Positions 12,075 to 29,515 of a stretch of 29,854 nt of DNA are shown in pieces. Origin of the DNA: Actinomycetota bacterium. GTDB taxonomy: Bacteria; Actinomycetota; Humimicrobiia; Humimicrobiales; Humimicrobiaceae. The notes under the pieces are model-generated. The model saw only the letters and a list, made by a program, of their open reading frames with translations, searched no databases and was not told the origin of the DNA. The stretch covers positions 1-29,854 of the forward strand of contig JAMCVO010000120.1 of assembly GCA_023475715.1 (NCBI GenBank), written 5' to 3'. The position numbers and the translations under genes are program-made. Each line of letters begins with the position of its first letter. Position 1 is the first letter of the stretch.

Positions 12075-13151
12075 TTATCTAAATGGCAAATAAGAATATT
12101 CTTTTATAGCTTTTACTAATGTTAAAATATTTATCACAGGAACATTTGACATCAAACACTGATCCGGAGCAATTATATAACCGCCATCTTTACCTAATAT
12201 TTGAATATATCTTTTTACTTCCCTTTTAATTTCTTCCGGATTTCCATTGGTTAATAAATTTTGGCTGTCTATCCCTCCAAAAAATACAATATCTTTACCA
12301 AATTGTTTTTTTAATAATTCAGGGTCCATAACATGCTGGATAGGATTTAAAACATCCAGACCAATCTCTATTAAATAAGGAATGATTTTTATTATATTTC
12401 CGCAAGAATGTAATATTACAGGGATCTTTTCCTTTTTAAATAAATCCCATATCTTCTTTAAACGCGGCATTATGAATTTTTTCCAATCATCAACAGACAT
12501 AATTAAATTTTCCTGAGTTCCAAAGTCATTGCTGTCCATAACACAATCAATTCCCATATCTATAAATCTTTTTGCTAAACTTAATTGGTATTCTGTAATT
12601 TTGTCTAATAATTCTTCCGCAAATTTTTTATTAGTTTTCATATCAATTAGAAAATTACCAAAACCTCTTAACGTATAAGCTCTTTCAAATATACCAAAAC
12701 CTAGTAGTGGAACTATGCAATATTTATCCTTATATTTTTCTTTTATCATCTTGGCACGGTCCAGTAAGTGTGAACCATTCGGATCAGGAAATTTATAATT
12801 TTCCAAATTGAAATCATCAGGTACAGGATTATATTTGATACAGATTCCTTCCTGAGTAATGTCATATCCTACACCCCAACTATCATACATAGTTTTTCCA
12901 TCTGCGCTTTGTTTACAATATTTTTTAGAATCATTAAGTTCGTCTTTTTTATTCCAGGATAAATGGCTGTCCGAACTGTAGACCAATACAATATGTCTAT
13001 CCAGAATATCCATTAATTTATCCTCATTATCATTTATTTCTTCTAGCAGTATATTTAAAAAATATTTTGATAACCATATATCACTTGGCAATCTATCGAT
13101 TTCTTTTCTCGTTATAGTATTTAATAGTCTTTTTTTTGGTGTCAGTTCCAT
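12075..13151 (-). CDS. URO-D superfamily protein 1 (MtaA/CmuA-like, zinc triad intact)
   Basis: The 358-aa protein has the uroporphyrinogen-decarboxylase/corrinoid methyltransferase fold. It opens with the PKKRLLNTITRKEIDRLP segment typical of the family. In its C-terminal half it carries LHSCGN with His248 and Cys250, and IAPDQCLMSNVP with Cys332. This H-x-C...C triad is the zinc site of MtaA/MtbA-type methyl-transferring enzymes. The N-terminal arginines used by true heme-pathway HemE are not evident. Last gene of the sugar locus, 33 bp after the amidohydrolase. I infer a methyl-transfer or related role; the substrate is unknown. Confidence 0.85.
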   Translation of the reverse strand: MELTPKKRLLNTITRKEIDRLPSDIWLSKYFLNILLEEINDNEDKLMDILDRHIVLVYSSDSHLSWNKKDELNDSKKYCKQSADGKTMYDSWGVGYDITQEGICIKYNPVPDDFNLENYKFPDPNGSHLLDRAKMIKEKYKDKYCIVPLLGFGIFERAYTLRGFGNFLIDMKTNKKFAEELLDKITEYQLSLAKRFIDMGIDCVMDSNDFGTQENLIMSVDDWKKFIMPRLKKIWDLFKKEKIPVILHSCGNIIKIIPYLIEIGLDVLNPIQHVMDPELLKKQFGKDIVFFGGIDSQNLLTNGNPEEIKREVKRYIQILGKDGGYIIAPDQCLMSNVPVINILTLVKAIKEYSYLPFR

Positions 13152-13184
13152 CAGCTTTCCTTTCTTACAACAGTATAAATTTAA

Positions 13185-13994
13185 TTATTTGAATTTAAAA
13201 AGCCTACTTGCATTGTTAAAAAAAATATTTTCCCTTTCCTTATCATCAAGATCTGCCTTAAGTACATTTATTATGTAATATCTTATGTCGCCCATTGGCA
13301 TATCAGTTCCAAAAAGAGTTCTGTCAGGACCAATGCTGTCTATTATTTTTCTATAAACCGGTGGATAATAATCATCCCCCGAAAGATCCAGATAAACATG
13401 ACTGTATTTACCGGTAAAATTTATAACTTTCTCAAAAAAAGATTTCCTACCGCCCGCATGTCCGAGAATAATTTTTAAATCCCGGAAATTATTCAACACT
13501 TTCTCTAAAAGGAGCGGGTTTGCATAGAACTGCTTCGGATTATCGGTATAAGGGCTCCAGCTATGGGTTAGAATGACCGTATCATTTTCAAGAGAATACT
13601 TCCATAGAGGATAATAAGATATATCATCAATCATTGTTTCATGAAATGCCGGATGTATTTTCACTCCTGCAAATTCCACTTTAATTCTATTTTTTTTAAT
13701 AATCTCCAACGATTTTTCCGGGAAATGGGGATTGTATATTAAGTACCAACTTATAAAATTTCCAAATTCATTGGAAATTCTGGTTATTACATCCATCTGA
13801 CCTTCTACATCAAAAAAACCTATGGCATGAGAGCAGATACACCTGACTACGTTATATTTTTTTAACAAATTTATGGTTCTTTTGTCACTATACTTATCAT
13901 AATAAATATTCGGCAATACTTTACCCAGATGCATATGCGCATCTATAATTTTAAATTTTTTTATTTCACTGATATAATCCCTGACTTTAATCAA
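13185..13994 (-). CDS. Amidohydrolase family 2 metal-dependent hydrolase (intact site)
   Basis: A 269-aa TIM-barrel hydrolase of the amidohydrolase-2 group, which includes lactonases and decarboxylases. Metal and catalytic residues are visible: IIDAHMH (His20, His22), VKIHP (Lys112, His114), THSW (His144), LGHAGG (His179) and LFGTDMP (Asp231). The start is TTG at 13994, supported by AAGGAG 9 bp upstream; it overlaps the preceding gene by 8 bp. Within a sugar locus a lactone-opening role is reasonable but unproven. The upstream partner is a related protein that has lost these residues. Confidence 0.88.
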   Translation of the reverse strand: MIKVRDYISEIKKFKIIDAHMHLGKVLPNIYYDKYSDKRTINLLKKYNVVRCICSHAIGFFDVEGQMDVITRISNEFGNFISWYLIYNPHFPEKSLEIIKKNRIKVEFAGVKIHPAFHETMIDDISYYPLWKYSLENDTVILTHSWSPYTDNPKQFYANPLLLEKVLNNFRDLKIILGHAGGRKSFFEKVINFTGKYSHVYLDLSGDDYYPPVYRKIIDSIGPDRTLFGTDMPMGDIRYYIINVLKADLDDKERENIFFNNASRLFKFK

Positions 13995-14766
13995 TTTCTA
14001 TACTCCTTAAAAGATTATCGATATTATTGAAGACTATATCTTCTTTAGCCTTATTATTTAAACCTGACATAAGCATCCTGACAACAGAAAATTCCATCTC
14101 AAGCACAGGATAGCTGGTACCGAAAATTAGTCTCTTTGAACCGAATTTTTTAACCATATCTTCAATCTGTTCCATCAAAAAAAGTTTACTAGTTTCAATA
14201 TATAAATTCTGGTATTTCTCAAGTAAAGGATACAATAACCTGTTAAACATTGCCTGTTTTAAAGTGCATTCTAAAATAACAGGTAAATCCGGATTTTCCT
14301 TCAGGATGATGTTCAATTCATCCATTGCAAAATACTTGTTGCCCGTTATGTCAAGCTCTTTTAGATCTATCATAATTGGAATTCTTCTGCCCGAGAGTAT
14401 TTTAAATATTTTTTTCATATAGATATCGTTTATATAAAACAGGTGAGATTTCGGAAATAACCTGAACAGCTTTACTTTTTGAGTAAGAGAAGATTTTACA
14501 TATTTGTTAAAATCAAAAACAATATAAGCTTCCGGCACCAGAATCAAACAAAGGTATAAATTATCACTTTCCAATAATGATTTATTTGACAGTAATTCGT
14601 TATTTCCTGTATGCCAGTCATATTTAAGAGACAATTCATTTGTTAAAATTGCAGTTTGAATTTCGTTTTCAGACAAAGATTTAACCAGCTTTATCAATTC
14701 ATTTTTTTCATCCTTTATGAATTTATCTCCTCTTATCCAATGGTTTATATCGAAAAAATTCATCAT
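13987..14766 (-). CDS. Degenerate amidohydrolase-like protein (probable pseudoenzyme)
   Basis: The 259-aa protein aligns by eye with its downstream neighbour: the end KRLIFGTSYPVLEMEFSV followed by KEDIVFNNIDNLL mirrors RTLFGTDMPMGD and IFFNNASRLF. The metal ligands are gone: FFDINHW in place of DAHMH, FRLFPKSH in place of VKIHP, VILECTL in place of ILGHAGG, and Ser218 in place of the catalytic Asp. The reading frame is intact and coupled by overlap to the active gene, so it is maintained as a protein, perhaps a regulatory or structural partner. The first of two consecutive ATGs is used. Confidence 0.78.
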   Translation of the reverse strand: MMNFFDINHWIRGDKFIKDEKNELIKLVKSLSENEIQTAILTNELSLKYDWHTGNNELLSNKSLLESDNLYLCLILVPEAYIVFDFNKYVKSSLTQKVKLFRLFPKSHLFYINDIYMKKIFKILSGRRIPIMIDLKELDITGNKYFAMDELNIILKENPDLPVILECTLKQAMFNRLLYPLLEKYQNLYIETSKLFLMEQIEDMVKKFGSKRLIFGTSYPVLEMEFSVVRMLMSGLNNKAKEDIVFNNIDNLLRSIEID

Positions 14767-14818: not shown

Positions 14819-15487
14819 TTATTGGCTATCCTTCATTAATTTTTTCCTGTATTTTTCTATCTCAAGATTATTTATTTCATCAATCTCTTCAGATGTAATT
14901 ACTGCCTCTTTCCCTAAAGTTCTTGCAGCAATAATCATTTTTGCTGTTTCTTCTATTAATACTGTCTTTACCCAGGCTTCTCTAAAGTTTTTTGCAACAA
15001 CAATAAGACCGTGTTTTTTTAATGTTAATGCTTCATAATTTCCGATATTTTTTTTAATCAGATCAGCTAATTTTTGGGTACATGGAGTGGTGTATTCAAT
15101 AATTGGAACTTTCTTTCCAAGAAATAATGGAAAGTCGGGGAAAAGTGGCTTTATTTCAACTCCTGCACCGATAACACCGATGGTGATAGGCGGATGAGTA
15201 TGAAAAATTGTATTTACATCTTCTCTGATCTTGTAAATTTCAATATGCATTGCAATTTCACTGGTTGGTCTTCTGGTCCCACTGGTAATCTCCCTGGTAT
15301 TTAGATCTATACAAACAATGTCCTCTATATCTATTTCATCAAAACCAAGTCCTGATGGAGTTAAAAATACAGTATTACCTCCCCGGTGGGAAATATTGCC
15401 TCCAGGGCCTACCACCAGATTTCTATCATTTATCATTTTCCCGTATTTTATTATTTCCTCTTTTATTTTTATTTCTTTTTCATCCAT
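14819..15487 (-). CDS. Class II aldolase/adducin family protein (FucA-like)
   Basis: A 222-aa zinc aldolase of the FucA/RhaD/AraD family, which splits phosphorylated ketoses to DHAP and an aldehyde or epimerises pentulose phosphates. The active-site set is complete and spaced as in E. coli FucA (Glu73, His92, His94, His155): Glu77 in PTSEIAMH, His96 and His98 in IFHTHPP, and His159 in LKKHGLIV. The phosphate-binding N-SHRGGN and TPSG segments are present. It is the smaller of two aldolases in this locus. Its ribosome binding site is weak. Confidence 0.92.
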   Translation of the reverse strand: MDEKEIKIKEEIIKYGKMINDRNLVVGPGGNISHRGGNTVFLTPSGLGFDEIDIEDIVCIDLNTREITSGTRRPTSEIAMHIEIYKIREDVNTIFHTHPPITIGVIGAGVEIKPLFPDFPLFLGKKVPIIEYTTPCTQKLADLIKKNIGNYEALTLKKHGLIVVAKNFREAWVKTVLIEETAKMIIAARTLGKEAVITSEEIDEINNLEIEKYRKKLMKDSQ

Positions 15488-15605: not shown

Positions 15606-16823
15606 TTAACTTTCAGGCATATCAGGATTGGTATCAGGTCCAAAAACTTTCAGCATAACCAAGGGTTCGTTTGCACTATTTTCTATTTCCACTCCTTTTT
15701 TTGCTGCCGAATATGTAACAAAAAATTCGTCATCTGTTAGCTCACCATATCTTATCTGGGTAGGGCTGGAAACCCCAACTCCATTAATTTTTCCAATACC
15801 CTGCAACGCTACCAATCCATATGCTCCCTTATCTGAAATAATTGCTTTTACTTTAGGGTCTATGGTTAATTCCTTGGCGCTAAAATATTCCTTATCATCA
15901 ATTTTCCCATAGATTATCCACTTTTCCATGTAACCCTTACTCCTGGTATTAGCATCAACTGTCTTTGGAACACGATAAAATTTCTCTTTAAAATTAGGAG
16001 TAATATTTTTTTCCCAATCCAGCATGCTAGCAATATAATCATAATCATTTTTTCTTTCAGGCGGCACACTAATGGTCAATAGTTCCTTATCTATAAACTT
16101 GTCTCCAACCATTGATTGAAATAAACTTAAGATATCAGATGCCCACTGAACCTCATATGTTAGAAGTGTCCCGGGTGCATGCAGTATCCCCGGTGGCAGC
16201 AGCCATCCTGTCCCGGGTTTTAACCTGTATGCCTTTGAAAGATCTAAAATCCCGTTATCTCCCTTGTCCCAGTTTTTAAGACAATTAATCAAATCCTGTT
16301 TGCTTGTACCGGGTTCCAGTCCAAAAAAGGTATAAGGAAATGTATTTTTGATTGTATTTAGCTGAACCGGAAAATAATATGCTTCGGGTTTTCCTTCCAT
16401 ACCTACATTTTTTGCATGCTCGTCCATTTGGTGAACATGATGAGGAATTGGTTCCATATTATCAAAAAACTTTGCATATATTTTCCAGCCGCCATACTTT
16501 TTCATGGTGTCTTTTCCAAGTATTATATCCCCACAACATTTTATAATATCTTTTAGAGTATGTTTCCGGTTATCGTGGACTACATAACTTAGACCCTCAT
16601 CATCCGGAGTTAAGGGTCCGTTATATGCTTTTGTTGTTGAAGCAAGCCATCTTTCGTCAATTCCTCCTCTTTGGGTTCCTAAGATATAGAGGTCATCCGG
16701 ATGCAGTTTTAATCTTCTGCCCGGAACCAGAAATGAACGCGGAACCCAGGTGGGCAACAGGTGGAGCACTCCATTTCCTTGGGCCAATGCTGCTTCAGTA
16801 AAATCTTTTATTCTGTTACTCAT
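15606..16823 (-). CDS. Cupin-type protein related to sugar (phosphomannose-type) isomerases
   Basis: The 405-aa protein carries a cupin metal motif, PIPHHVHQMDEHA (His128/129, His131), followed by KPEAYYF (Glu147) and WLLPPGILHAPGTLL (His215). These are the four metal ligands expected of a type I phosphomannose-isomerase-like site. A second cupin-like barrel (about 300-395) lacks an obvious metal set. The N-terminal GVLHLLPTWVPRSFLVPGRRL is conserved in a group of uncharacterised sugar-operon proteins. It lies between the two class II aldolases, so I infer isomerisation of a pathway sugar. The exact family is uncertain. Confidence 0.7.
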   Translation of the reverse strand: MSNRIKDFTEAALAQGNGVLHLLPTWVPRSFLVPGRRLKLHPDDLYILGTQRGGIDERWLASTTKAYNGPLTPDDEGLSYVVHDNRKHTLKDIIKCCGDIILGKDTMKKYGGWKIYAKFFDNMEPIPHHVHQMDEHAKNVGMEGKPEAYYFPVQLNTIKNTFPYTFFGLEPGTSKQDLINCLKNWDKGDNGILDLSKAYRLKPGTGWLLPPGILHAPGTLLTYEVQWASDILSLFQSMVGDKFIDKELLTISVPPERKNDYDYIASMLDWEKNITPNFKEKFYRVPKTVDANTRSKGYMEKWIIYGKIDDKEYFSAKELTIDPKVKAIISDKGAYGLVALQGIGKINGVGVSSPTQIRYGELTDDEFFVTYSAAKKGVEIENSANEPLVMLKVFGPDTNPDMPES

Positions 16824-16918: not shown

Positions 16919-17650
16919 TTAAAACTGCACATCTTTTCTTTCAAAATAAAACTCGGTGTCTTTTATTTGGGTTCTTTGAATATGCTGCCAGTCTTCATAC
17001 ATATCTTCCAAGCACATATCTTTATATTCCTTATAAAAATTACTATTTTTTATTATTTGCATGTAATAGAAAGTTCTTGCATTATTTTCCAGGGCTTCTG
17101 TTTTTGAAAATGCCTCCCGCAAATCTTTGCCTGCAATTACTGCACCATGACCGGGCAGCAGGCACGCCAAACCACTATTGGGATTTAAGTTATATAAGTA
17201 TTTAAAATATTTTGTAACCGCAACTGACTCTCTGATGCTTACTTCCGGCTCGTCTTTAATGCACTTGATATAACGTGGAAACAGCCAGTCACGGGCAAGC
17301 CCCGTTACTATCGGCATATCAGATTTGAGTGATGCAAATCCAAGCAGGTATCTTGGATGAACATGAAAAACTGCATTTATATGGGGAAACTCATCCAGTA
17401 TCCTGTAATGAACGTGTGACTCACGGGTTAGGAAAGCCTGCATTTCCGGTCTGGCTGCTTTTCCGGTCAAATCAGTTTCAATAATGAAGTCCTCATCAAG
17501 GTTCCATTGTTTGAGGCTTGAGCTTTCCCTTCTTGTTACAAAAACTTTATCACCTTCCCTGGCAGAGCAATTACCTCCTGCAGAATCAAGTATTTCCTTC
17601 TGGTATAGGGCTTTAACATATTTTTGTAATTCTTCTTTGACTTTAGACAA
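16919..17650 (-). CDS. Class II aldolase/adducin family protein, second copy
   Basis: A 243-aa class II aldolase with Glu77 in TRESHVHYRIL, His96 and His98 in AVFHVHPRYL and His168 in LPGHGAVI, so the zinc and catalytic set is complete. It differs clearly from the other aldolase and has an extended C-terminal region (from about 200) rich in charged and aromatic residues. The start is TTG at 17650, just after a strong GGAGGAG site. It follows the xylulokinase-like gene by 37 bp. It likely acts on the product of one of the two kinases. Confidence 0.9.
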   Translation of the reverse strand: MSKVKEELQKYVKALYQKEILDSAGGNCSAREGDKVFVTRRESSSLKQWNLDEDFIIETDLTGKAARPEMQAFLTRESHVHYRILDEFPHINAVFHVHPRYLLGFASLKSDMPIVTGLARDWLFPRYIKCIKDEPEVSIRESVAVTKYFKYLYNLNPNSGLACLLPGHGAVIAGKDLREAFSKTEALENNARTFYYMQIIKNSNFYKEYKDMCLEDMYEDWQHIQRTQIKDTEFYFERKDVQF

Positions 17651-17687: not shown

Positions 17688-19223
17688 TTACATTTCTCTG
17701 ATTTTAGCAAGCTCTACATATAGATCTTTATTTCTATCATAAAGCTCCAAAAATATTTTATAATACTGTTCATATATTTTCGTATTAGCGGCAATTGGCT
17801 CTGTCCTGTCACCAATCTTTACCCATTTTTTTGTTACTGAAAAATCTTTAAATACACCGGTACCAACCCCTGCAAGTACGGCATTACCCAAAGGCGCACC
17901 GGTTGAACTTTTCATATATGATCCGGGTATCTCAAGCATATCGCAGACTATCTGTCTCCATAACTTTGATTTTGCTCCACCCTCACTTAAAATTATTGGA
18001 AGGTTTATCTTAATTCCACTTTTTTTGATAATACTGTAGTTGTTTCTGAATGCATAACCTGCCGCTTCCATAATGGCTCTCAGTATATGAGCCCTGGTAT
18101 GATTAAATGAGAGCCCAAATATAAGTCCCCTTGCATAAGGGTCCCAGATTGGTGTTCGCTCACCCTGAAAATATGGTAGTATTACCAGCCCGTCACAACC
18201 TGGTTTTATTTTTTCTGCTTCAATATCCATAATTTCAAATGGATCCATTCCAAGATCCCTTGCGGCATTAACTTCTGCTATGGCCAGTTGGTCTCTGAAA
18301 TACCTGTATAGTCCTCCGCATAATTGCGCAGAAACAGTAGTATAAGTATTTTTAGAGTCAGCCGTGTGAATAATTGTAATCATATTTCTGGTAAAACTAT
18401 CTTTTTTATGTACTATTCCCAAAACCCCTGCAGTTCCCATAACTACTGAAGAGTCCCCGTCATCAATAGCTCCCCCGGCTGCCCAGGCAGCAGTGGCGTC
18501 CACAGTGCCTGCAACAACAGGTGTACTTTCCGGGATGTTGGTACTTAATGAGGCGTTCTTTGTAACATAGCCTATTATCTCTTCACATGGGTAAGCATCC
18601 GGCAGTTTTTGCCTATCAATACCTATTTCTGCCAGAAGTTTTTCATCCCAAACTTTTTTTCTTATATCAAATGCTATTCCAATCAGGGATGCATTTGAAT
18701 AATCCGTGACTGCTTTGCCTGTAAGTTTCATGGTCGGATAATCTGCGGCAGTTTGAAGCTTGTAGGTTCTTTTATACAGATCCGGCCTGTTATCCCTTTC
18801 CCACATAAGCTTGGTCAGCGCATAATAAGGATCTATGGGGTTTGCCGAGAGATTAAATATTCTCTCTTGCCCAATATTTTCTTTTAACCACTCACATTGT
18901 TTTGTTGACCTTCTGTCCATCCAGATATGGGCAAGCTGCAATGGTTTTAGCTCTTTATCTACAAGTATGCAGGCTGGCGATAGGGCGCTTATGCTTACAC
19001 CCTTTATATTTTTTGGATTTATTTTGGAATCAGTTACTGCTTTGCTTATTGTATCTGCCACAGCTCTCCAGTACCATTCCGGATCATGCTCTGCGTAACC
19101 TGTGCTGTTTGTAAGTAATGGATATTCAATAAAATGCTGCCCTAAAATATTACCGTCTTTATCTATTACTACAGATTTTGTCCCGCCTGTTCCAACATCT
19201 GAACCGACTAAATAATCAGTCAT
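17688..19223 (-). CDS. FGGY-family carbohydrate kinase (xylulokinase-like)
   Basis: A 511-aa sugar kinase. It shows the phosphate-1 motif SDVGTGGTKSVVID (8-21), GYAEHDPEWYW (42-52), the WMDRRS substrate segment (101-106), GTVDATAAWAAGG with the catalytic Asp242, the GTAG phosphate-2 motif and LPYFQGERTPIWDP. These fit xylulokinase-type FGGY enzymes, but the exact ketose cannot be read from sequence. GGAG precedes the ATG. The position before a class II aldolase suggests it phosphorylates the ketose that the aldolase cleaves. Confidence 0.9.
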   Translation of the reverse strand: MTDYLVGSDVGTGGTKSVVIDKDGNILGQHFIEYPLLTNSTGYAEHDPEWYWRAVADTISKAVTDSKINPKNIKGVSISALSPACILVDKELKPLQLAHIWMDRRSTKQCEWLKENIGQERIFNLSANPIDPYYALTKLMWERDNRPDLYKRTYKLQTAADYPTMKLTGKAVTDYSNASLIGIAFDIRKKVWDEKLLAEIGIDRQKLPDAYPCEEIIGYVTKNASLSTNIPESTPVVAGTVDATAAWAAGGAIDDGDSSVVMGTAGVLGIVHKKDSFTRNMITIIHTADSKNTYTTVSAQLCGGLYRYFRDQLAIAEVNAARDLGMDPFEIMDIEAEKIKPGCDGLVILPYFQGERTPIWDPYARGLIFGLSFNHTRAHILRAIMEAAGYAFRNNYSIIKKSGIKINLPIILSEGGAKSKLWRQIVCDMLEIPGSYMKSSTGAPLGNAVLAGVGTGVFKDFSVTKKWVKIGDRTEPIAANTKIYEQYYKIFLELYDRNKDLYVELAKIREM

Positions 19224-19271: not shown

Positions 19272-20375
19272 TTAATACCTGCCGTATTCATGAATGGCAT
19301 TTATATAAGCTACAAAATTTTCATGCGGGATATTATTACCAATTGAATGTGAACAAGTGGCAACATAACCGTATCCTGGTTTTAGGAATTTCATATGTTC
19401 CTCAACATCTTTTACCACATCTTCAGGTGTTCCTCTGGCTAACGGGAAATCAATATCCACATTTCCTGAAAGACAAAGTCTATCTCCATACTTTTTTTTA
19501 TAATCCCTGTAATCAACACTGTATGGGTCCATAGGATTAATACAATCAATCCCTATATCAATAAGATCTTCAACTATATCGTCTATTTTTCCATCAGAGT
19601 GAAACATGACAGGTACACCTGCATTTACTGCCGGTTCTATTATTCTGGCAACCCTGGGAACCCAGATTTCTTTCATAATTTTCGGTGGAATAAAAAGCCC
19701 GCCTTTAAAAGCAACATCATCTGCAGGAAAAATAAAATCCACTCCTTCTCCAATTATGACCTCTGTTAATTTTATGAAGTATTCTGTCGACACTTCCAGC
19801 ATATCCTCAACCAGTTGCATGTCGTCATAGCACATAATCATGAAGTCATTCATTCCTACCACAAATTCATATAGAGTTTGCAGGATACAACCGTAACTGT
19901 AAGTAATTCCAATCCTGGAATTTCTTCTTCTCAATGTCTCCTTGTATTCTCTTATATATTTGATGTCATAATCGATTTGAGGTTTAGAATCTAAAATTAA
20001 GGATTCAAAGTCTTTTCTTGTTTTTACCGATTTATCAATAACCTGAACTAATTTACCATTTCTGTCTTCCTTTTTAAAAGGAGTCCAAAAACCACCGTCC
20101 AAGGTCATGACATCCTGGCCGATGATATTACAAAGATCTATATAATCATCCGGATACATAGGCCTTACGGCTGAATGTGCCGGACCTTTGCCAGGATCTC
20201 CGCCGTATGCAATTGTACTTCCACTATATTTTCCTAATATTTTCTCCACATGCATACTGTCAATCAATGTTTCGTTATTTGGTACCCTGTCAACCTTTTT
20301 TCTTTTTAGAGTCGCCAGGAACCTTTCCTTATCAGGTTCATCAGCGTATGGCTCAATTATTTTTGTTTCTATCAA
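19272..20375 (-). CDS. URO-D superfamily protein 2 (variant metal site)
   Basis: A 367-aa uroporphyrinogen-decarboxylase-fold protein. The segment matching the zinc-site HxC reads FHSDGK (His259, Asp261) and the later cysteine region reads ATCSHSIGNNIPHEN (Cys341, His343). One thiolate of the methyltransferase triad is therefore replaced by Asp. The start is TTG at 20375 with AAGGGA upstream. It sits between the two FGGY kinases. Function unknown; the changed ligand argues against a simple MtaA role. Confidence 0.82.
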   Translation of the reverse strand: MIETKIIEPYADEPDKERFLATLKRKKVDRVPNNETLIDSMHVEKILGKYSGSTIAYGGDPGKGPAHSAVRPMYPDDYIDLCNIIGQDVMTLDGGFWTPFKKEDRNGKLVQVIDKSVKTRKDFESLILDSKPQIDYDIKYIREYKETLRRRNSRIGITYSYGCILQTLYEFVVGMNDFMIMCYDDMQLVEDMLEVSTEYFIKLTEVIIGEGVDFIFPADDVAFKGGLFIPPKIMKEIWVPRVARIIEPAVNAGVPVMFHSDGKIDDIVEDLIDIGIDCINPMDPYSVDYRDYKKKYGDRLCLSGNVDIDFPLARGTPEDVVKDVEEHMKFLKPGYGYVATCSHSIGNNIPHENFVAYINAIHEYGRY

Positions 20376-20426: not shown

Positions 20427-21914
20427 TTATAAAATCTTTATATAATTGTTAAATGCCTCATCCCATTTATCTTTATTTTTTTTATCGGGTTCGTAATAAA
20501 TCACTGTGCTTGAATTTAAAGACAATTCTCTTCCCTCTTCTAAACTTCCTATCTCTCCTGCAGCTTTAAGCTGCATAATCAGATTACCCATCGATGTAGT
20601 TTCAACCGGCCCTATTACCACAGGTATACTTAATGCATCTGCAATCCACTTGCAAAATATCCTGTTTTGGGTACCCCCGCCAATAATTTGTACTATTTCT
20701 ATTTTTTTATTAATTAATTTTTCAAGCATACTGAAATTACTTTTTATACTCATTACAATGCTCTCATATATGCATCTGGAAATTTCTTGTATATTCTCAG
20801 GAACTTTTAGCCCCTTATTTTTGCAATAATCTGCAATTGTACCCGGCATATCTGATTGCGGTTTTAAAAAGATACTATCATCAATATTTATAAATGTTTT
20901 AAAAGGTATAGACTTTAGAGACATTTCGTCTATTTCGTCCCATGACATATTAACACCTTTTTCCTTTATCCATCTTTCCCGGCATTGCTGAATCAGCCAG
21001 AGCCCAGTTACAGCTTTAAAAAGCAAATTTAAACCCTCAGCACCGCCTTGGTTACTAAAACCCGAAACAAATACTTCATTGTTAATAACAGGATGGTCGT
21101 TTTCAATACCTATTACATACCAGGTTCCAATACTTATAAACGCCCACTTTTTATTTTTATTCATTACAGGAATACCAGCCACTGCCGAGGCAGTATCATG
21201 TGTGGCTGGAGCAATAACGTTAACTGAACTTATTCCAAGTTCAGTTTTTAAATCATCCGTAAGAGCACCTAATCTAGTTCCGGGCATAACTATCTGATTA
21301 AAAATATTTGCAGATACATCTATTTTTTTTAATATTTTATCTTCCCATTTGTTATCTTTCTGGTTATACAAAAGGGTAGAAGTAGCATTTGTAAATTCAC
21401 TAAAGATTTCTCCTGTTAAAAAATAATTTAAAATATCAGGTATCATAAGAAGTTTATATGCATATAATATTTCTGTTGAATTCTTTTGTTTTAAGGAATA
21501 TAAATTATATAGTCCCAAGGTTGAATTTATATTGCCGCCTGTCAGTTTAAATATTTCAATTTCAGGAACAATTTTATACAAATCATGGGCCATGACGCAC
21601 CTGCTTTGATCCCTGTAATGAACCGGGTTAGCTATTAATTTTCCATTTATATCTATAAAACCAAAATCACTTGCCCATGTATCAATTCCCATTGAAACAA
21701 TGCTGTTAAATCGTTTAGATGCTAGTGAGATTCCATTTTTTAATTCCGAGAATAATCTAAGAATATCTGTATAAAGAGTACCTGCTGCATAGACTGGTTT
21801 ATTTATAAACCTGTGAACTACTTCCATACATATTTCTTTTCCTGAATATTTTGCAACAGTGCACCTGCCATTGCTTGCCCCAAAATCAAAAATTAAATAA
21901 TTACTTGAAACCAT
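20427..21914 (-). CDS. FGGY-family carbohydrate kinase (rhamnulokinase-like)
   Basis: A 495-aa kinase with the RhaB layout: DFGASNGR (10-17), GIDTWASDFG (76-85), NPVHYRDQSR (96-105), NSTLGLYNLYSLK, APATHDTASAV with the catalytic Asp240, ISIGTWYVIG and GGAEGLNLLFKAVTGLWLIQQ. Rhamnulokinases phosphorylate L-rhamnulose at O1; close relatives act on fuculose or other 6-deoxyketoses. It begins 11 bp after the permease stop, so it is co-transcribed with the transporter. It is the best pointer that a 6-deoxyhexose-type sugar is used. Confidence 0.9.
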   Translation of the reverse strand: MVSSNYLIFDFGASNGRCTVAKYSGKEICMEVVHRFINKPVYAAGTLYTDILRLFSELKNGISLASKRFNSIVSMGIDTWASDFGFIDINGKLIANPVHYRDQSRCVMAHDLYKIVPEIEIFKLTGGNINSTLGLYNLYSLKQKNSTEILYAYKLLMIPDILNYFLTGEIFSEFTNATSTLLYNQKDNKWEDKILKKIDVSANIFNQIVMPGTRLGALTDDLKTELGISSVNVIAPATHDTASAVAGIPVMNKNKKWAFISIGTWYVIGIENDHPVINNEVFVSGFSNQGGAEGLNLLFKAVTGLWLIQQCRERWIKEKGVNMSWDEIDEMSLKSIPFKTFINIDDSIFLKPQSDMPGTIADYCKNKGLKVPENIQEISRCIYESIVMSIKSNFSMLEKLINKKIEIVQIIGGGTQNRIFCKWIADALSIPVVIGPVETTSMGNLIMQLKAAGEIGSLEEGRELSLNSSTVIYYEPDKKNKDKWDEAFNNYIKIL

Positions 21915-21925: not shown

Positions 21926-22765
21926 CTATCCTTTTACCGCTCCTGAAACCAGACCTTTAATGATATATTTCTGGGCAACAAAAAATAAGACAATCGCCGG
22001 GATAGAAGCAAGTATAGCTGCAGCCATCAATGCTGAATAATTTGAAAACCAAAAACCTAAAACATTTGCCAAACCTGCCATAAGCGTAAAGCTCTTTTGG
22101 GAAGTAATAAAAGTAATTGCAAACATATATTCCATCCAGGCCAGCATGAAAGAGAATGCACCTGCCGATAAAATACCAGGAGCAGAAATTGGGAAAATTA
22201 TCCTTAAAAGAATCCCGATTTCGCTGCACCCGTCAATCCTTGCCGAATCATCAAGTTCTTTTGGCAATCCGTCAAAAAAACCTTTAAGCAACCAGATGCA
22301 GAGCGGGAGAGAAAATGTTATATATGCTATTATGAGTGAAGCTATATTGTCAATAAGATTAAATCTGTAAAAAAGTAAATATAACGGTATTACAAGAAGA
22401 GCGGGGGGAAACATATAAACCAACAGCACTGATTGAGAAATAAATCTGTCCCCGAAAAATCTATATCGGGACAGAGCGTAAGCTGCCAAAGACCCCACAG
22501 AAACGCTAAAAAAAGTAGTAGATAAGGATATTATCAGAGAGTTTAATCCGTACTTTAAAAAATTTCTGTTAAAAAGAATTGATTTGTAACCCTCAAGGGT
22601 GGGATTTTTAATCATAAGAGTGGGAGGATAAGTTAAAATCTCCGTCTTTGGTTTAAAAGAAGTAACTAATGCTACTACTATCGGGTAAAATGTAATAATT
22701 AAAGCAACAGCAATGATAAAATAACCTATTATCTTATAAATTGTTATTTTACTGGTATGTTTCAT
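21926..22765 (-). CDS. Carbohydrate ABC transporter permease (MalG-like)
   Basis: A 279-aa inner-membrane protein with about six hydrophobic segments and the cytoplasmic EAA loop ELDDSARIDGCSEIGILLRIIFPIS (near 190-215) that contacts the ATPase. The ending IIKGLVSGAVKG is typical of MalG-type subunits of the CUT1 family. It is the second permease gene, following the MalF-like gene by 84 bp. No ATP-binding subunit is encoded here, so a shared ATPase elsewhere, such as an MsmX/UgpC type, must serve it. Confidence 0.93.
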   Translation of the reverse strand: MKHTSKITIYKIIGYFIIAVALIITFYPIVVALVTSFKPKTEILTYPPTLMIKNPTLEGYKSILFNRNFLKYGLNSLIISLSTTFFSVSVGSLAAYALSRYRFFGDRFISQSVLLVYMFPPALLVIPLYLLFYRFNLIDNIASLIIAYITFSLPLCIWLLKGFFDGLPKELDDSARIDGCSEIGILLRIIFPISAPGILSAGAFSFMLAWMEYMFAITFITSQKSFTLMAGLANVLGFWFSNYSALMAAAILASIPAIVLFFVAQKYIIKGLVSGAVKG

Positions 22766-22849: not shown

Positions 22850-23737
22850 CTAATCTCTTCTAAGCGACCTGATATAAAATATCGAAACAATAACAAGAAC
22901 GATAAAAATAACCACTCCAATCGCAGAACCATAACCTAAATTAGAACTTCTGATTGCATAATGATAGCTTAATGTACTCAGAAGCTGTGTTGCACCACCC
23001 GGACCGCCCTTGGTCATTACCCAAACGAAATCAAATGATGTAAAAGTCCAGAGAAATAATATTATTGCCATAAGCTTGATTATTGGCCTGAGTAAAGGTA
23101 AGGTAATATATCTGAACTTATGCCAGGCAGTGGCCCCATCAACTGAAGCAGCTTCAAATACTTCTTCTTCAAGAGATTCTATGCCTGCAATAAATACCAG
23201 CATAACAAAAGGAAATGCTCGCCATATAAGCGGAATACTTACAGACAACAAAGCTAATTTAGTATTTGCCAGGAATAATATTTTGCCATGTAAACCCAGA
23301 AGTTTAGCATAATAATTTAGAAACCCATACATCGGATTGTACAGCCACATAAAAATGATACTCGTTGATATTGTCGCTATTGTCCATGGAATTAAGAAAA
23401 AAGCTCTAAATATTTTTTCACCTTTAAGACGCCGTGTCAGCAGATATGCCATGCCAAATCCTACCAATAATTGTCCACCAACTCCAATTATTGACCATAT
23501 TATTGAATTCTTTAAGGCTTGCCAAAAATCAGGATCCTTAAAAAGTCTTAAATACTGATAAACTCCTACCAGGTTATAGGCCCTCTCTGTTAGAAACTTA
23601 TCTGTAAATGATAGAAATATCCCGCGAAATATAGGATATATTATAATCGTAAATATTATAACGATTGCAGGAAGCATAAGTGCATAAGGAAAAATCTTTT
23701 TTCTTGTCTGCCATCCAAATAAATTATTTTTTAACAT
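22850..23737 (-). CDS. Carbohydrate ABC transporter permease (MalF-like)
   Basis: A 295-aa inner-membrane protein with six predicted transmembrane segments, beginning near LMLPAIVIIFTIIIYPI, and the EAA loop EEVFEAASVDGATAWHKFRYITLPLL near the C-terminal third. WVMTKGGPGGAT before the last helices is a CUT1 MalF-type hallmark. It pairs with the MalG-like permease and the binding protein. A stable hairpin lies upstream, between it and the binding-protein gene. Confidence 0.93.
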   Translation of the reverse strand: MLKNNLFGWQTRKKIFPYALMLPAIVIIFTIIIYPIFRGIFLSFTDKFLTERAYNLVGVYQYLRLFKDPDFWQALKNSIIWSIIGVGGQLLVGFGMAYLLTRRLKGEKIFRAFFLIPWTIATISTSIIFMWLYNPMYGFLNYYAKLLGLHGKILFLANTKLALLSVSIPLIWRAFPFVMLVFIAGIESLEEEVFEAASVDGATAWHKFRYITLPLLRPIIKLMAIILFLWTFTSFDFVWVMTKGGPGGATQLLSTLSYHYAIRSSNLGYGSAIGVVIFIVLVIVSIFYIRSLRRD

Positions 23738-23876: not shown

Positions 23877-25271
23877 TTATTTTTTATAGATTTCTTCGTA
23901 TTTTGCCTGTGCATTTTTTAAAGCTTCCTCAGGAGCCATTCCTTTAACAACTACATCCTGAACCATATTTGCCTGAATAAAAGCTTCCCAGGCAGCACCA
24001 TTTTTTGGATTGCCCGGATCCGGATCAAAGCCACGGTTACTGGTTTTTTGCTGTTCCAGCGCTAATGTCATGTAATCTTCTATTTTATTACCCATGCTTT
24101 CCCATGCATCCCAGGCAGGCTTATATCCTGGAATAAAACCGGTACCGAAAACCCATTCAGCATGACGTTTTGGTTCAAAGTACATTTTGATGGCAGCTTT
24201 AACTAAATCCGGATACTTTGTGGTACTAAAACCATTAATTGTACCCAGTGATGCCCATGCACCATGCACACCGGTTAAAGGATCTGCCGGAAGCAGGGTT
24301 AACCCTGTTTTTGCAAACGTATCAGGGTATTGGGTTTTAATTTGCTGCAGTCCTATCATATTAAATTCCATCATAGCAATCTGCTCTTCTCCAAACATTG
24401 CAATAAGAGGAGTAGATATGGATTCATAACCAGATATAGCAGTAATGCCTGGAGGTGTTACTTTATACTTGAGCCCTATATCAGTATATACCTGTAACGC
24501 ATGCAATGTTTCCGGGCTATTAAGAACTACATTTCCATCCTTATCAAGTAAATGACCACCAGCAGCTATTCTATAGCCTGTAAAGTATTGTTCAGTTGCA
24601 TTGCTGGCACTATAATCAAGACCCATCCCATATACCTCTTTTGCAGGATCGGTAATAGCCTGTGCTATTTTTATCATTTCATCCCAGTCATTTGGCGGGT
24701 TATCAAAACCAGCATTTTTTAACATTTCTTTATTATAATAGAATAATTCTGCTGACTCCACGTATGGCAACATCCATGTTTTACCATCAGATTGATAATT
24801 TTTCAGGAGTGGAGAAAAACTATCAGGTCCCCCAAGGTCAGCAAGTACATCATCTAATTGCAGAACAAGACCATCAGGAACAAAAGGAAACACATGTGAA
24901 TCCCCTGCCTGAGTTAAATCAGGAAGATTGCCTGCTTCTGCCGCTGCTACCGTTTTTTGCCAGAAACCTTCCCATGGCACCCACTCAATTACTAAATCAG
25001 CATCAGGATTTGCTTTTTCAAAGTCAGCTTCAAAAGTTTTCCAAAAATTAGTCTCCCAATCATTGCCAACGTAGGGATGCTGCCAGAAAGTTATAACCTT
25101 TTTCTCACCTGCTGCAGTAGTTGCAGCCGCTGTAGTTTCGGCAGCCGCTGTAGTTGCTGCAGCTGTAGTTTCTGCGGCTGTCGTTGTTGTAGCTGTTTTA
25201 CACCCAACACCAACAAAAACCATAGTACCGATAAAAACTGTTATTAACATTATAATAACGAACTTCTTCAA
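23877..25271 (-). CDS. Extracellular sugar-binding lipoprotein of the ABC transporter
   Basis: A CUT1-type (MalE-like) solute-binding protein. I start it at TTG 25271 because GGAGGT lies five bases before it; the in-frame ATG at 25283 overlaps that ribosome binding site. The N-terminus LKKFVIIMLITVFIGTMVFV is a signal peptide ending GVGC, an atypical lipobox with Cys at residue 24. A Thr/Ala/Glu linker with two perfect 11-residue repeats follows, then ITFWQHP and the family core with LPDLTQAGDSH, LPYVESAELFYYNKEML and the C-terminal KYEEIYKK. The sugar cannot be told from sequence. It is preceded by its own promoter at 25438-25466. Confidence 0.93.
   Translation of the reverse strand: MKKFVIIMLITVFIGTMVFVGVGCKTATTTTAAETTAAATTAAAETTAAATTAAGEKKVITFWQHPYVGNDWETNFWKTFEADFEKANPDADLVIEWVPWEGFWQKTVAAAEAGNLPDLTQAGDSHVFPFVPDGLVLQLDDVLADLGGPDSFSPLLKNYQSDGKTWMLPYVESAELFYYNKEMLKNAGFDNPPNDWDEMIKIAQAITDPAKEVYGMGLDYSASNATEQYFTGYRIAAGGHLLDKDGNVVLNSPETLHALQVYTDIGLKYKVTPPGITAISGYESISTPLIAMFGEEQIAMMEFNMIGLQQIKTQYPDTFAKTGLTLLPADPLTGVHGAWASLGTINGFSTTKYPDLVKAAIKMYFEPKRHAEWVFGTGFIPGYKPAWDAWESMGNKIEDYMTLALEQQKTSNRGFDPDPGNPKNGAAWEAFIQANMVQDVVVKGMAPEEALKNAQAKYEEIYKK
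25110..25175 (-). repeat. Two 33-bp repeats encoding the Thr/Ala linker
   Basis: The lipoprotein linker encodes AETTAAATTAA twice in tandem (11 residues each). The repeat is perfect in protein but the DNA copies differ at synonymous positions, so it is old or under selection for composition. Confidence 0.75.
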
Positions 25272-25392
25272 ATTAACCTCCATTTTAAGAATGATATTGA
25301 TTTAACTTAAAAATTTTCTTTTTTAATAAAACCACCTCCTTATTTTATTTATTATTACCCTATTTGTTTCACCTCCCTGCTATGTAATATTG

Positions 25393-25714: not shown

Positions 25715-26809
25715 CTATTCTTTTATAATTTCTTCTATTTTTCTTTTCATATCAATAGTTTGGCTCTTATTTAAATAGCCTGCTATCATATTAAATTTTC
25801 TACTGCTTTTTTCCCTAAGTACTGAAATGTTACCTTTTTCCTTTTCTTTTAAATAACCGTCTGCCTCACAAGTTGCCGGACATGCAATGCTTATTGCACT
25901 GAAGTCTTTATTTATAACTGTCCATCTGGTTAGGTGGTTAAGTTCTTCAGGCTTGTATCCAACATAGTCTGAAGAACCATCAGAATGAACCTGCATAAAA
26001 TGTACTAGTTTATTACTGTCCGTTTTGAGTTTATTAAAATAAAAAATAATTCCGGGATCGTAAGGATCGGACAGTTTTATGAACTTTGTCAGCGATGGAT
26101 TGACTGATATTTTTTTAACAAAATCCACATGTTTCTTAGCCGCACCCAAATCAGGATATAAAGCATTTCTTAGAATCATATTCTCTTTATTAAAACCTGC
26201 GCTCTGCATGATTTCTCCATTTTCAACAGGTAAGAAGTTTATATGAGCCAAATACATAAGTTCCATCGGATAATTTGATAAATTCATAATTTCAATAGAG
26301 ATTTCCAGTAAGGTAGAGTCTTTATAAAATTTAATTACTGACTTAGCGCAGTAATGGGAGCCAAATGCTTTGTTGTATTCAAAAACACCAGTCACTCCTA
26401 AATATGTTCCTTTACTATCTTTCCCTGTTAATATTTTGACATTATCATATTCAGCGGTCGGTAATTCGCCATGAAAAGAAAAATCACTTGAATCGGGACT
26501 GCCTACTCTGAGCGCTCCACAATGCATAAAAAAACAGCCGTAAGAATAATAAAAATTATTAGTATTGACGGGCAAAGTAAATGGAGACTTCATTTTTAAT
26601 CTGCGGTTATCAAAGACAATATCCCAGATTTGCTGGCCGTTAAATGGCAGTACTATTGCATATCCATTTTCATTTACTAATTTTACTGCGCAAACGCCAG
26701 TGTCATATTTAAATAAAAATACTTTTAAACCATCAATTTCGATAAACTTTTGTTCTTTATATACAAAAAAATCTTTATTTAATAAAATTTGTGTTTCGTT
26801 GTTTTCCAT
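25715..26809 (-). CDS. DUF4432 family protein (aldose-epimerase-like fold)
   Basis: The 364-aa protein looks like the DUF4432 branch of the galactose-mutarotase fold: FNGQQIWDIVFDNRRLKMKSPF, then MHCGALRVGSPDSSDFSFHGELP (about 95-117) with the conserved HGE, and YLAHINFLPVENG near the middle. Proteins of this group occur in sugar loci and are thought to epimerise or mutarotate aldoses; the exact reaction is unproven here. AAAGGAG precedes the ATG. It lies between the isomerase gene and the transporter. Confidence 0.78.
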   Translation of the reverse strand: MENNETQILLNKDFFVYKEQKFIEIDGLKVFLFKYDTGVCAVKLVNENGYAIVLPFNGQQIWDIVFDNRRLKMKSPFTLPVNTNNFYYSYGCFFMHCGALRVGSPDSSDFSFHGELPTAEYDNVKILTGKDSKGTYLGVTGVFEYNKAFGSHYCAKSVIKFYKDSTLLEISIEIMNLSNYPMELMYLAHINFLPVENGEIMQSAGFNKENMILRNALYPDLGAAKKHVDFVKKISVNPSLTKFIKLSDPYDPGIIFYFNKLKTDSNKLVHFMQVHSDGSSDYVGYKPEELNHLTRWTVINKDFSAISIACPATCEADGYLKEKEKGNISVLREKSSRKFNMIAGYLNKSQTIDMKRKIEEIIKE

Positions 26810-26918
26810 AAATATTTACTCCTTTAATAGAGTACACAATGATAATTGAAATAAGCTATTCTGCAGTAATTTTTGTAAATTTTTATCAAATTAAAAATGT
26901 TTTTAATATTTTTAATAA

Positions 26919-28280
26919 TCAACAAATTATGTCCTGAATTTTTAGAATTTTACAAATTCTTATTAGCTCGTCTTTAAAATCCCCATAAACCCAATGCATG
27001 TGGTGTGCCAAAATATTTTGGAGAAAATATTCAATATCGCTATCCAGTTTGATAAAAATTGCAGGCATTCTTTCCCTGACTTCTTTTAATTTCTCTCTGG
27101 GTTCATATATTGCAGTTCCCGTAGATATTTGCATATGGTACTTTCCTTCAATTCTTCCCAACCTTGCTATTGTGACTCTGCCTGGTTTGCTGACAAAAGA
27201 AGTAGTCGTTCCGGTCCCAGGTCCGGGGCACAAATAATCATACATCTCCATTAAATATACATCTTTGGGACTTTTTGCAAAATCAGTAGGAAATGATCCG
27301 CAATTCATAAGTCTAAGAATATTCCCCTTTATGTCTATATCAGAGACATCCCCAAACCCGGGTATGGAATTTGAAACCATTTTTAAGATCTGCATCGTAA
27401 GCGCTGCATTGACATCACCTTCGCAAGCCACGACAAAACCTTCATCTAAATTCTTTGAAACAGATAAACAATGTGAACAGTAACTTCCATGTACCTCAGG
27501 CATACATTTCACTGCAGCAAAATCTAAATCATATTCATTTGCCAGTTCCTTCAAAGCAAAATACAGTCTAATCGATTTCTCTTCAACCTCAGGCGGTGTC
27601 TCAATTCTGCCGTATTTTCCATGAAGATAATTTGAATACTCGCTTATCTTATTTTTATCAATCGCTTTTGCCCTGTCCACTAAGCAAGATTCATTAATAT
27701 GTGATGTTTCAACTCCAAAAACTTTTTTAACCTGTATAAGATCAGTGGTCCCGGTATACATGTGCATATACTTACCGCCAAAAATCCCAAAACTCATACC
27801 ATTCAGTTCATTTACAATAGAAGATGTGCCGGCTGTTATTTTTATCTTTTCTATAAATTTGTCATCTTCCGGTTCTGCATATACAATTTCATGCTCCAGT
27901 CCCATCTCCTTAAAAGTGCCGCGTAAATGGCATAAAGATCCTATCGGTAATACCATTGAATTATGAAAGGCCCATAATATTATAGGAATTCTCTTATTAA
28001 GCAGATCAACTGAATCAATAATTAATTGCGGAGGAACCCAGGCGCCTATCTCAAAAACGATGCAGTCAACGTCTTCCTGAATCAAATACTTTACTTTTTC
28101 CCGGGCTACAGCGCTGTCATCTATTATTTCCTCAATATTTATAACATCCATGCCGGCACTTTTTATGCTTTTCTCGGCTCTTTTAGAATATTCTCTTATA
28201 ATTTGTTCAGCTTCTTGCGGAACGGGTGAAATTTTTTTTGGAATTGAAACAATAATTATCCCTATTTTTGGTTTTTTCAT
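26919..28280 (-). CDS. L-fucose/L-arabinose isomerase-fold protein
   Basis: The 453-aa protein has the N-terminal alpha/beta region of FucI/AraA-type isomerases (IGIIIVSIP, then IVFEIGAWVPPQLI). The C-terminal half carries the likely metal residues: Glu262 in CMPEVHGSYCSH, Glu287/Asp289 in CEGDVNAALTM and the AHHMHWVYGD cluster (His426-429). These fit aldose-ketose isomerases using Mn2+. It is shorter than E. coli FucI (591 aa), like many uncharacterised family members, so substrate assignment is open. It would make the ketose for the kinases encoded downstream. Confidence 0.85.
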   Translation of the reverse strand: MKKPKIGIIIVSIPKKISPVPQEAEQIIREYSKRAEKSIKSAGMDVINIEEIIDDSAVAREKVKYLIQEDVDCIVFEIGAWVPPQLIIDSVDLLNKRIPIILWAFHNSMVLPIGSLCHLRGTFKEMGLEHEIVYAEPEDDKFIEKIKITAGTSSIVNELNGMSFGIFGGKYMHMYTGTTDLIQVKKVFGVETSHINESCLVDRAKAIDKNKISEYSNYLHGKYGRIETPPEVEEKSIRLYFALKELANEYDLDFAAVKCMPEVHGSYCSHCLSVSKNLDEGFVVACEGDVNAALTMQILKMVSNSIPGFGDVSDIDIKGNILRLMNCGSFPTDFAKSPKDVYLMEMYDYLCPGPGTGTTTSFVSKPGRVTIARLGRIEGKYHMQISTGTAIYEPREKLKEVRERMPAIFIKLDSDIEYFLQNILAHHMHWVYGDFKDELIRICKILKIQDIIC

Positions 28281-28333
28281 CTTTGTTTTTATTACCTTTC
28301 CTTTAAAAAAAATAATTATTAAATTTATTGATT

Positions 28334-29515
28334 TTAAATCTCCACATTATGCCTGCCCAGTTTTAGAGGATATTTCCCAAACTTGTCCAGTAAATAAACA
28401 GCATACTCGTAATTTTTAGGAGGTACGGCATTGCTTACAGAATGATCGGTTTGAAAAATGAACCCCCCGCCCTTGGCGGCATTTAATTTATACATTATTT
28501 CATTTTCAATATCTTCAAATGATCCACTTTCTAATACCTGTATGTTGATGTTTCCATTATAGGCCAATTTGTTGCCATATTTTCTTTTTAATTTGACTAT
28601 ATCCAGCCCTGTTTTAGACTCAATGGAATTGTAACAGTCAATACCGGCATCTATTAAATCACCAAGGATTGGTTCATTGTTACCGCAGCCGTGCCATATA
28701 ACTTTTAGCCCAAGGCTATGAACACAATTACACAACCTCTTTAGGCAGGGTTTAAATACCCTTACCCAGATTTCAGGTGAAAATAGAAGTGTTTTTTTAT
28801 ATGCTACGTCTCCAAATAAATATATTCCTTTTACACTCCCGTTTGCTGCTATGACTTGTTCTTTAATAAGTTCAACTTGAAAATCTGTAATTCTCCTGCT
28901 GAAATCCTCAATTACATCTAAATCGGTTGCCATTAACATGAGAGCTCTTTCTGTACCAATTATTCTCCACAAATATTCAAAGACATCAGAAGCAGCACCA
29001 AATACACAATAGTCTTCCTTTTTCAAATCTATTTTTTCAAGGAAAGAATCTGTTGCTTTACCGAATTTATCTCCTATGCAATTTGCCTGGTCATCAATCA
29101 CATCATAAAATCTTCTTTTATCTTTCGGATCATCAAATTCAAATTTTTTAATTTTTTCAATTGTATTTGTCTCAAAGTCTAAGAACATAGGCATAGGCTG
29201 ATTAAAGACTTTTTTAATTTTTGCCTCAAAGCCGGTTCTGACTACAACATACTCATCTGTTTTTTCAATAACCTCAAAATTTTTAATATGCGGATCCATG
29301 TTTGGCATAATTACCACAATATCAAGATCAAAATATTTATCTATGTCAAAATCTGCAAAACCGCTTTCTTGTGCTCCAACAGGCAAATTCTTGTATTTCC
29401 TAAAATTTTCTATAAAGCTGCTCCAGAACCACTCTCCTTTTGGTATTTTATCTGGCTCCATATGATTTAATGTTGTTAAAACTCTATTTGTTTTTTCTTC
29501 AGATTTGTCACTCAT
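28334..29515 (-). CDS. URO-D superfamily protein 3 (variant metal site)
   Basis: The 393-aa uroporphyrinogen-decarboxylase-fold protein is the first gene of the locus. The zinc-site segment reads WHGCGN (His275, Cys277), but the third ligand position reads QTDHSVSNAVPP (Asp357, His358) in place of Cys. It is therefore another variant of the methyltransferase triad, different from that of protein 2. Opening EEKTNRVLTTLNHMEPDKIPKGE is typical of the group. Its ribosome binding site is weak. A candidate promoter lies at 29654-29682. Substrate unknown. Confidence 0.83.
   Translation of the reverse strand: MSDKSEEKTNRVLTTLNHMEPDKIPKGEWFWSSFIENFRKYKNLPVGAQESGFADFDIDKYFDLDIVVIMPNMDPHIKNFEVIEKTDEYVVVRTGFEAKIKKVFNQPMPMFLDFETNTIEKIKKFEFDDPKDKRRFYDVIDDQANCIGDKFGKATDSFLEKIDLKKEDYCVFGAASDVFEYLWRIIGTERALMLMATDLDVIEDFSRRITDFQVELIKEQVIAANGSVKGIYLFGDVAYKKTLLFSPEIWVRVFKPCLKRLCNCVHSLGLKVIWHGCGNNEPILGDLIDAGIDCYNSIESKTGLDIVKLKRKYGNKLAYNGNINIQVLESGSFEDIENEIMYKLNAAKGGGFIFQTDHSVSNAVPPKNYEYAVYLLDKFGKYPLKLGRHNVEI

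Follow-up and report, generated by a model that had tools for sequence, protein, structure and literature searches.

Candidate corrinoid methyltransferases of the URO-D family within a sugar-catabolic gene row of an Actinomycetota bacterium

Which sugar would require an isomerase, two kinases, two aldolases and a second putative isomerase in a single gene row, and why would three members of the uroporphyrinogen decarboxylase (URO-D) family stand among them? The question is raised by positions 1 to 29,854 of contig JAMCVO010000120.1 from an Actinomycetota bacterium (assembly GCA_023475715.1), the 29,854-nucleotide stretch called the window here. Its minus strand carries, between 12075 and 29515, fifteen open reading frames (ORFs) for proteins of 222-511 aa. 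The best reading, which we hold to be probable by a little, is that one or more methylated sugars are taken up, that the methyl group is removed by URO-D proteins via a corrinoid protein, and that the freed sugar then passes through isomerase, kinase and aldolase. In the order of transcription the genes are:

28334..29515, minus strand: URO-D3, candidate corrinoid methyltransferase with HGCG motif (PF01208 70.5 bits; MtaA/CmuA-type models 44 and 38 bits)
26919..28280, minus strand: ISO, aldose-ketose isomerase of the FucI/SftI superfamily (Fucose_iso_C 72.8 bits; SftI model 113 bits, cut-off 700)
25715..26809, minus strand: DUF4432 protein (PF14486 56.7 bits)
23877..25283, minus strand: CUT1-type sugar-binding lipoprotein (SBP_bac_1 76 bits)
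22850..23737, minus strand: ATP-binding cassette (ABC) permease, MalF/UgpA type (PF00528; UgpA model 91 bits)
21926..22765, minus strand: ABC permease, MalG/UgpE type (PF00528; GlcU 111 bits, MalG 101 bits)
20427..21914, minus strand: RhaK, rhamnulokinase-like FGGY kinase (TIGR02627 360 bits, under its cut-off of 528)
19272..20375, minus strand: URO-D2, candidate sugar:corrinoid methyltransferase with HSDG ... SHS motif (PF01208 100 bits)
17688..19223, minus strand: XylK, xylulokinase-like FGGY kinase (TIGR01312 340 bits, cut-off 380)
16919..17650, minus strand: AldB, class II aldolase B (PF00596 83.5 bits; HVH, GHG and Glu present)
15606..16823, minus strand: phosphomannose-isomerase-like cupin (structure model matches; no Pfam family)
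14819..15487, minus strand: AldA, FucA-like class II aldolase A (PF00596 136 bits; L-fuculose-phosphate aldolase model 130 bits, under its cut-off of 264)
13987..14766, minus strand: AHo2, amidohydrolase-like partner lacking HxH and Asp (sequence inspection)
13185..13994, minus strand: AHo1, amidohydrolase with intact metal motif (PF04909 88.6 bits; HMH and FGTD)
12075..13151, minus strand: URO-D1, candidate corrinoid methyltransferase with HSCG ... C motif (MtaA/CmuA-type models 110 and 103 bits; hemE 38.5)

Neighbouring genes are -8 to 139 nt apart, except that 431 nt separate the DUF4432 and binding-protein genes. The first-pass annotation, made from the DNA letters, had proposed one isomerase-fold protein, two FGGY kinases, two class II aldolases and three URO-D proteins on one strand, and Pfam bears out these families: URO-D three times (115, 100 and 70.5 bits; cut-off 23.9), Amidohydro_2 (88.6 bits), Aldolase_II twice (136 and 83.5 bits), the N- and C-terminal FGGY domains twice, BPD_transp_1 twice, SBP_bac_1, DUF4432 (56.7 bits) and Fucose_iso_C (72.8 bits). 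Its CUT1 transporter without ATPase likewise holds, as no ABC ATPase was matched in the Pfam scan of the 29 window ORFs. What it had called epimerase-like is the DUF4432 protein, presumably of aldose-mutarotase type. At E 0.001 two proteins are without a Pfam match, the 405-aa cupin and the 259-aa AHo2. None of the kinases, aldolases and isomerase reaches the curated cut-off of a named sugar enzyme, so they do not reveal a substrate. RhaK is up to 57% identical to kinases of related genomes, and a tree of 25 kinases left it unplaced. The class II aldolase motif consists of HxH, a third His and Glu, and inspection of residues finds all of these retained in both aldolases. The window has no Rfam or tRNA match, and its promoter and terminator counts lie near those of shuffled background.

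Known O-demethylases (MtvB, OdmB, VdmB and MtoB) belong to the UroD superfamily (PMC13222342). For URO-D1 and URO-D2 the highest scores come from MtaA/CmuA methyltransferase models, with hemE much lower, yet the best scores of the URO-D proteins stay far under the cut-offs of the methyltransferase models. Against the hemE cut-off of 303, URO-D1 reaches 38.5 and URO-D2 23.4, and URO-D3 has no match. HemE carries an N-terminal RQAGR motif, which by sequence inspection is absent from all three proteins; a role as HemE (uroporphyrinogen decarboxylase) is rejected on these scores and the missing motif. A URO-D2 profile run against the PDB found methylcobalamin:coenzyme M methyltransferase (4ay7, 51 bits), then CdmB (29) and then HemE (23.5). 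The structure model of URO-D2 has a predicted local distance difference test (pLDDT) score of 88.7, and fold comparison was not decisive between HemE and methyltransferase; CdmB (9rui) is not among the 50 fold matches listed, an absence that carries no meaning.

A protein of the metagenome-assembled genome "Actinobacteria bacterium" (M1308) is 92% identical to the cupin, and other cupin relatives come from Candidatus Humimicrobiaceae. The locus was therefore compared with 40 genomes from the class to which Candidatus Humimicrobium oleiphilum (genome G001, locus L023) belongs, which we take to be Humimicrobiia (G numbers denote genomes and L numbers fetched loci). Short contigs cut many neighbourhoods, so that absences of neighbours are weak. 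Neighbours in fetched loci were named by BLASTP against window proteins and a few annotated references, and CUT2 permeases and ATPases, like the ATPase of L013, by likeness or reading rather than by family scan.

In this set the positions of genes tie corrinoid methyltransferases to sugar operons. Relatives of URO-D2 (E 1e-90) occur at 35 places in 21 of the 40 genomes, and genes for the corrinoid methyl-carrier family PF02607 at 95 places in 35 genomes. A PF02607 gene lies within 3 kb of 19 of the 35 URO-D2 places, one of which relies on a match under the PF02607 cut-off, where gene density predicts 0.46; for places of at least 61% identity the figure is 18 of 25 (0.32 expected). RhaK shows the same linkage: at its 45 places a PF02607 gene is found within 10 kb in 15 (1.5 expected) and URO-D2 in 13 (0.9 expected). 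These 45-place counts are unbiased, whereas many of the 24 fetched RhaK stretches were chosen for URO-D2. The operons that combine URO-D2 and corrinoid genes also include ABC genes, among them one for a Peripla_BP_4 binding protein, together with a xylose-isomerase-like barrel, a RhaK-like kinase (365 vs 528) and a mutarotase (above cut-off for Pfam rhaM; NCBIfam 73 vs 99.6). The corrinoid gene of L071 has both B12-binding domains above the Pfam cut-offs. AldB had no relative at E 1e-40 in the 40 genomes; weaker relatives (27-35%) are present in fetched loci, and in L069, L076 and L077 relatives of 34-35% identity lie within rows of URO-D2 and corrinoid genes. The reductive activator RACo is encoded in 39 of the 40 genomes and in one of 14 controls, and PF00809, a family that also covers other pterin-binding enzymes, in all 40.

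All the predicted parts of such a system are found together in a clostridial gene row, L013, of Clostridiaceae bacterium BRH_c20a. On one strand it encodes an ABC ATPase, a CUT1 binding protein, two permeases, an ISO-family isomerase (SftI model 298 bits) and a GntR regulator, then a phosphofructokinase, a ketose-bisphosphate aldolase, a URO-D1-like protein (32% identity) and a corrinoid protein in which both B12-binding domains are present. The last two genes of the row encode a 210-aa protein and a methyltetrahydrofolate:corrinoid methyltransferase (MT-II; 358 bits, cut-off 259). The genome has three URO-D matches, and the chance of one falling in the stretch is about 1.5%. Judged by its gene families, L013 is a hexose operon holding all three parts of a putative corrinoid demethylase. 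It stands alone: a search of 46 genomes of its class at E 1e-60 recovered its methyltransferase from itself and from none of the other 45. The gene of the 210-aa protein, between the corrinoid and MT-II genes (L013:16355-16987), has no Pfam or NCBIfam match. With L013 for URO-D1 and the many places for URO-D2, the part of the first-pass annotation that assigned removal of a sugar modification to URO-D proteins gains support, since their relatives stand beside corrinoid proteins in sugar operons.

The isomerase leads to the same family. Genome contigs were scanned with 29 ISO relatives, which gave 37 loci from many phyla, and BLASTP places a URO-D gene in 12 of them, where 3.2 would be expected; random draws reached 12 or more about twice in 100,000. 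This expectation assumes even scatter and rests on URO-D genes counted in 20 of the 37 genomes, the other 17 being given the mean; all 12 positive loci fall among the 20 counted. Among closer relatives of ISO, a URO-D gene is present in L003 and L005 and is lacking from L001 and L002 (short contigs) and L004. In two Lachnospiraceae loci, L007 and L008, an ISO-family isomerase accompanies two RhaK-like kinases and, respectively, two and one class II aldolases; no URO-D gene is labelled there, a doubled branch without methyltransferase.

The cupin, which has no Pfam match even at E 1 and no NCBIfam match, had earlier been described as isomerase-like. This description stands and can be sharpened. 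Its structure model (pLDDT 76.8, with 54 residues under 50) has as its 17 best PDB matches mannose-6-phosphate isomerases throughout, at a template modelling (TM) score of about 0.5 and 11-16% identity (best Foldseek E 3e-14, TM 0.54). H129, H131, E147 and H215 are invariant across 26 sequences and resemble the metal ligands of phosphomannose isomerase, to which they may correspond. As modelled, the cupin has the type I phosphomannose isomerase fold and is a second isomerase candidate beside ISO, its activity being predicted. With this assignment the isomerase, kinase and aldolase are therefore all doubled.

We propose that one or two methylated sugars are imported and broken down by this locus; O-methylated 6-deoxyhexoses, or an oligosaccharide containing them, are the likeliest substrates. 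The CUT1 transporter would import the substrate with an ATPase from elsewhere. One or more of the URO-D proteins would then act as methyltransferase I, handing the O-methyl group on to a corrinoid protein whose gene lies elsewhere and which is supplied in trans; from there the group would reach tetrahydrofolate. Either the FucI-fold or the phosphomannose-isomerase-like protein would convert the freed aldose into a ketose, an FGGY kinase would phosphorylate this, and a class II aldolase would cleave the product into dihydroxyacetone phosphate and an aldehyde, with two isomerase-kinase-aldolase branches for the products. The methyl chemistry, the siting of the methyl group on the sugar itself and the order of these steps we infer from gene content and position.

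Several results weigh against this proposal. Scanning the 29 window ORFs found neither a corrinoid protein nor MT-II, and none of the 18 AHo1 places in the 40 genomes has a corrinoid gene inside a 10-kb radius. The nine cupin places there lack RhaK, URO-D2 and corrinoid genes over the same distance, which speaks against the single pathway that the first-pass annotation had envisaged. Relatives thus split the parts into two sets, RhaK with URO-D2 (partly with amidohydrolases) and the cupin with isomerase, kinase and epimerase, and the window looks like a join of the two. It is conceivable, if rather improbable, that rearrangement merged two unrelated operons, one of rhamnose type (RhaK, URO-D2 and the amidohydrolases) and one with cupin, isomerase, xylulokinase and aldolase, each serving its own sugar with no joint pathway. 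The cupin does keep company of its own: an ISO-family isomerase, an epimerase-like protein, a ribulokinase and AraD in L115, L117 and L119, and the same without the isomerase in the short L118 (in L119 the ribulokinase is above cut-offs, AraD above a subfamily model and the epimerase above none). The cupin of M1308 (M1308_11270) is 92% identical, but the URO-D2 relative with the same locus-tag prefix (M1308_11700) only 72%. The window itself argues otherwise. From RhaK through URO-D2, XylK, AldB, cupin, AldA, AHo2 and AHo1 to URO-D1 its genes are interleaved rather than set in two blocks, with gaps of -8 to 118 nt. URO-D genes, moreover, accompany both sets in relatives, being present in six of the nine fetched cupin stretches (an ISO-family gene in four, an epimerase-like gene in five). 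A division of homologous loci into two conserved operons, named beforehand as evidence against a single pathway, is thus seen in part, among the 40 genomes and not in the single row of the window. For the proposed demethylation of methylated sugars, the joining of two sets that are separate in relatives implies that two ketoses are probably handled.

The substrate may also be viewed differently. That the methyltransferases act on an N-methyl group of an amino sugar, or on a methylated aglycone, instead of a sugar O-methyl group seems unlikely to us. Genes of the MttB family, some with corrinoid genes, do occur in sugar operons of the class, where they replace or accompany URO-D (L072, L082, L083, L152-L154, L156-L158), and a class III aminotransferase lies near AHo or URO-D2 relatives in L086, L133 and L158. 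Known URO-D O-demethylases, moreover, use methoxy-aromatics (PMC13222342, PMC8630106). The window scans, however, matched no MttB, aminotransferase or aromatic-compound gene. Less probable again, and in our view very unlikely, is ordinary L-fucose or L-rhamnose catabolism with paralogues, in which the URO-D proteins would be bystanders or otherwise employed. RhaK, the FucA-like aldolase and the FucI-fold isomerase would suit such chemistry, but isomerase, kinases and aldolases are all under the curated fucose and rhamnose cut-offs, and URO-D genes are enriched near both ISO-family genes and RhaK. Two genomes, G016 and G023, each hold a RhaI-RhaK locus without methyltransferase (L155, and L161 on a 5-kb contig) besides a methyltransferase-linked one; ordinary rhamnose is for this reason not a likely substrate of the methyltransferase-linked sets.

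The MttB-family genes, of trimethylamine methyltransferase type, are unexpected in this setting. They lie within sugar ABC operons with RhaK in L153, L154, L156, L157 and L158, in the first four of these alongside a xylose-isomerase-like barrel. One sugar operon, L152 (19.9 kb), carries three MttB-like, three URO-D-like and one corrinoid gene together with two RhaM-like mutarotases, an aldolase, an isomerase and a RhaK cut by the end of the stretch.

Of the two proteins first read as having an amidohydrolase fold, AHo1 has the intact metal motif, whereas AHo2 (259 aa) lacks the HxH and Asp that are metal ligands of amidohydrolases; its best Pfam amidohydrolase score is 12.4 bits against a cut-off of 26.4. 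An AHo2 partner lies next door in all 15 distinct near-full-length AHo1 relatives of the fetched loci, and HxH is absent from the first 90 residues of all 16 distinct AHo2 relatives. The two appear to form a constant pair, one an enzyme and the other its degenerate partner, with a possible role in hydrolysing an ester or a lactone. Of the 18 AHo1 places, 4 have URO-D2 and 5 have RhaK within 10 kb (0.4 expected for each); given the lack of corrinoid neighbours noted above, the share in removing the modification once assigned to the amidohydrolases is not borne out. The pair is found as neighbours in L080, L086 and L124-L133, several of which also have a DeoR regulator and sugar ABC genes.

Outside the gene row, a 569-aa lipoprotein-like protein is encoded on the plus strand at 10337-12046, convergent with URO-D1. 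Pfam and PDB searches gave no match, and it may be a surface enzyme of a new type. A region of low guanine-cytosine content at 5551-6684 holds HicA-like (72 bits) and ParE-like (45 bits) toxin genes, each adjoining a small gene that may encode an antitoxin.

There is a wider possibility, which we rate just short of probable: anaerobes of several phyla may degrade O-methylated sugars with URO-D (perhaps also MttB-type) methyltransferases of sugar operons, the methyl ether yielding its methyl group to tetrahydrofolate and the sugar entering isomerase, kinase and aldolase. This would be an anaerobic counterpart of the demethylation of 6-O-methyl-galactose by P450. Up to 61 URO-D matches occur in one genome (20 genomes counted). 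Should many of these prove to be sugar demethylases, two ideas become testable: that anoxic sediments have a hidden supply of methyl groups, and that methylated polysaccharides can be degraded without oxygen. No earlier report of corrinoid sugar demethylation was found in the open literature, searched mainly by titles and abstracts. The portion of PMC3870299 (rhamnose regulons) consulted mentions neither uroporphyrinogen, corrinoid nor methyltransferase, and that of PMC10805028 neither sugar nor O-methyl.

Compared with known systems, the locus resembles several and coincides with none. The sulfoquinovose isomerase SftI of the sulfo-SFT pathway provides the best curated model for both ISO and the L013 isomerase; the equivalog cut-off of 700 is far above the 113 bits of ISO, a score on which a sulfoquinovose pathway is rejected, and models of that pathway matched nothing else in the locus. 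With RhaABD and FucIKA the row shares a FucI-fold isomerase, a rhamnulokinase-like kinase and a FucA-like class II aldolase, and it differs by a second isomerase, kinase and aldolase, three URO-D proteins and two amidohydrolase-like proteins. For L-fucose the scores stay under the cut-offs (FucK model 124 and 102 vs 471; FucA models 130 vs 264 and 69 vs 400; no fucI match for ISO), as they do for L-rhamnose (rhamnulokinase model 360 vs 528; no RhaA/RhaI or RhaD match in window proteins). The cupin shares with type I phosphomannose isomerases its modelled fold and the His and Glu residues resembling metal ligands, and differs in its low identity to their structures and in standing beside another isomerase candidate. 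The corrinoid O-demethylases (MtvABC, OdmB and VdmB, the archaeal MtoABC and the haloalkane system CdmBCA) use a URO-D-superfamily protein as methyltransferase I, and relatives of the URO-D proteins of this locus are similarly paired with a corrinoid protein, joined in L013 by MT-II; the window scan matched neither of the two. The substrates of those systems are methoxy-aromatics or haloalkanes, whereas the URO-D genes of the window stand among genes for the transport and catabolism of sugars.

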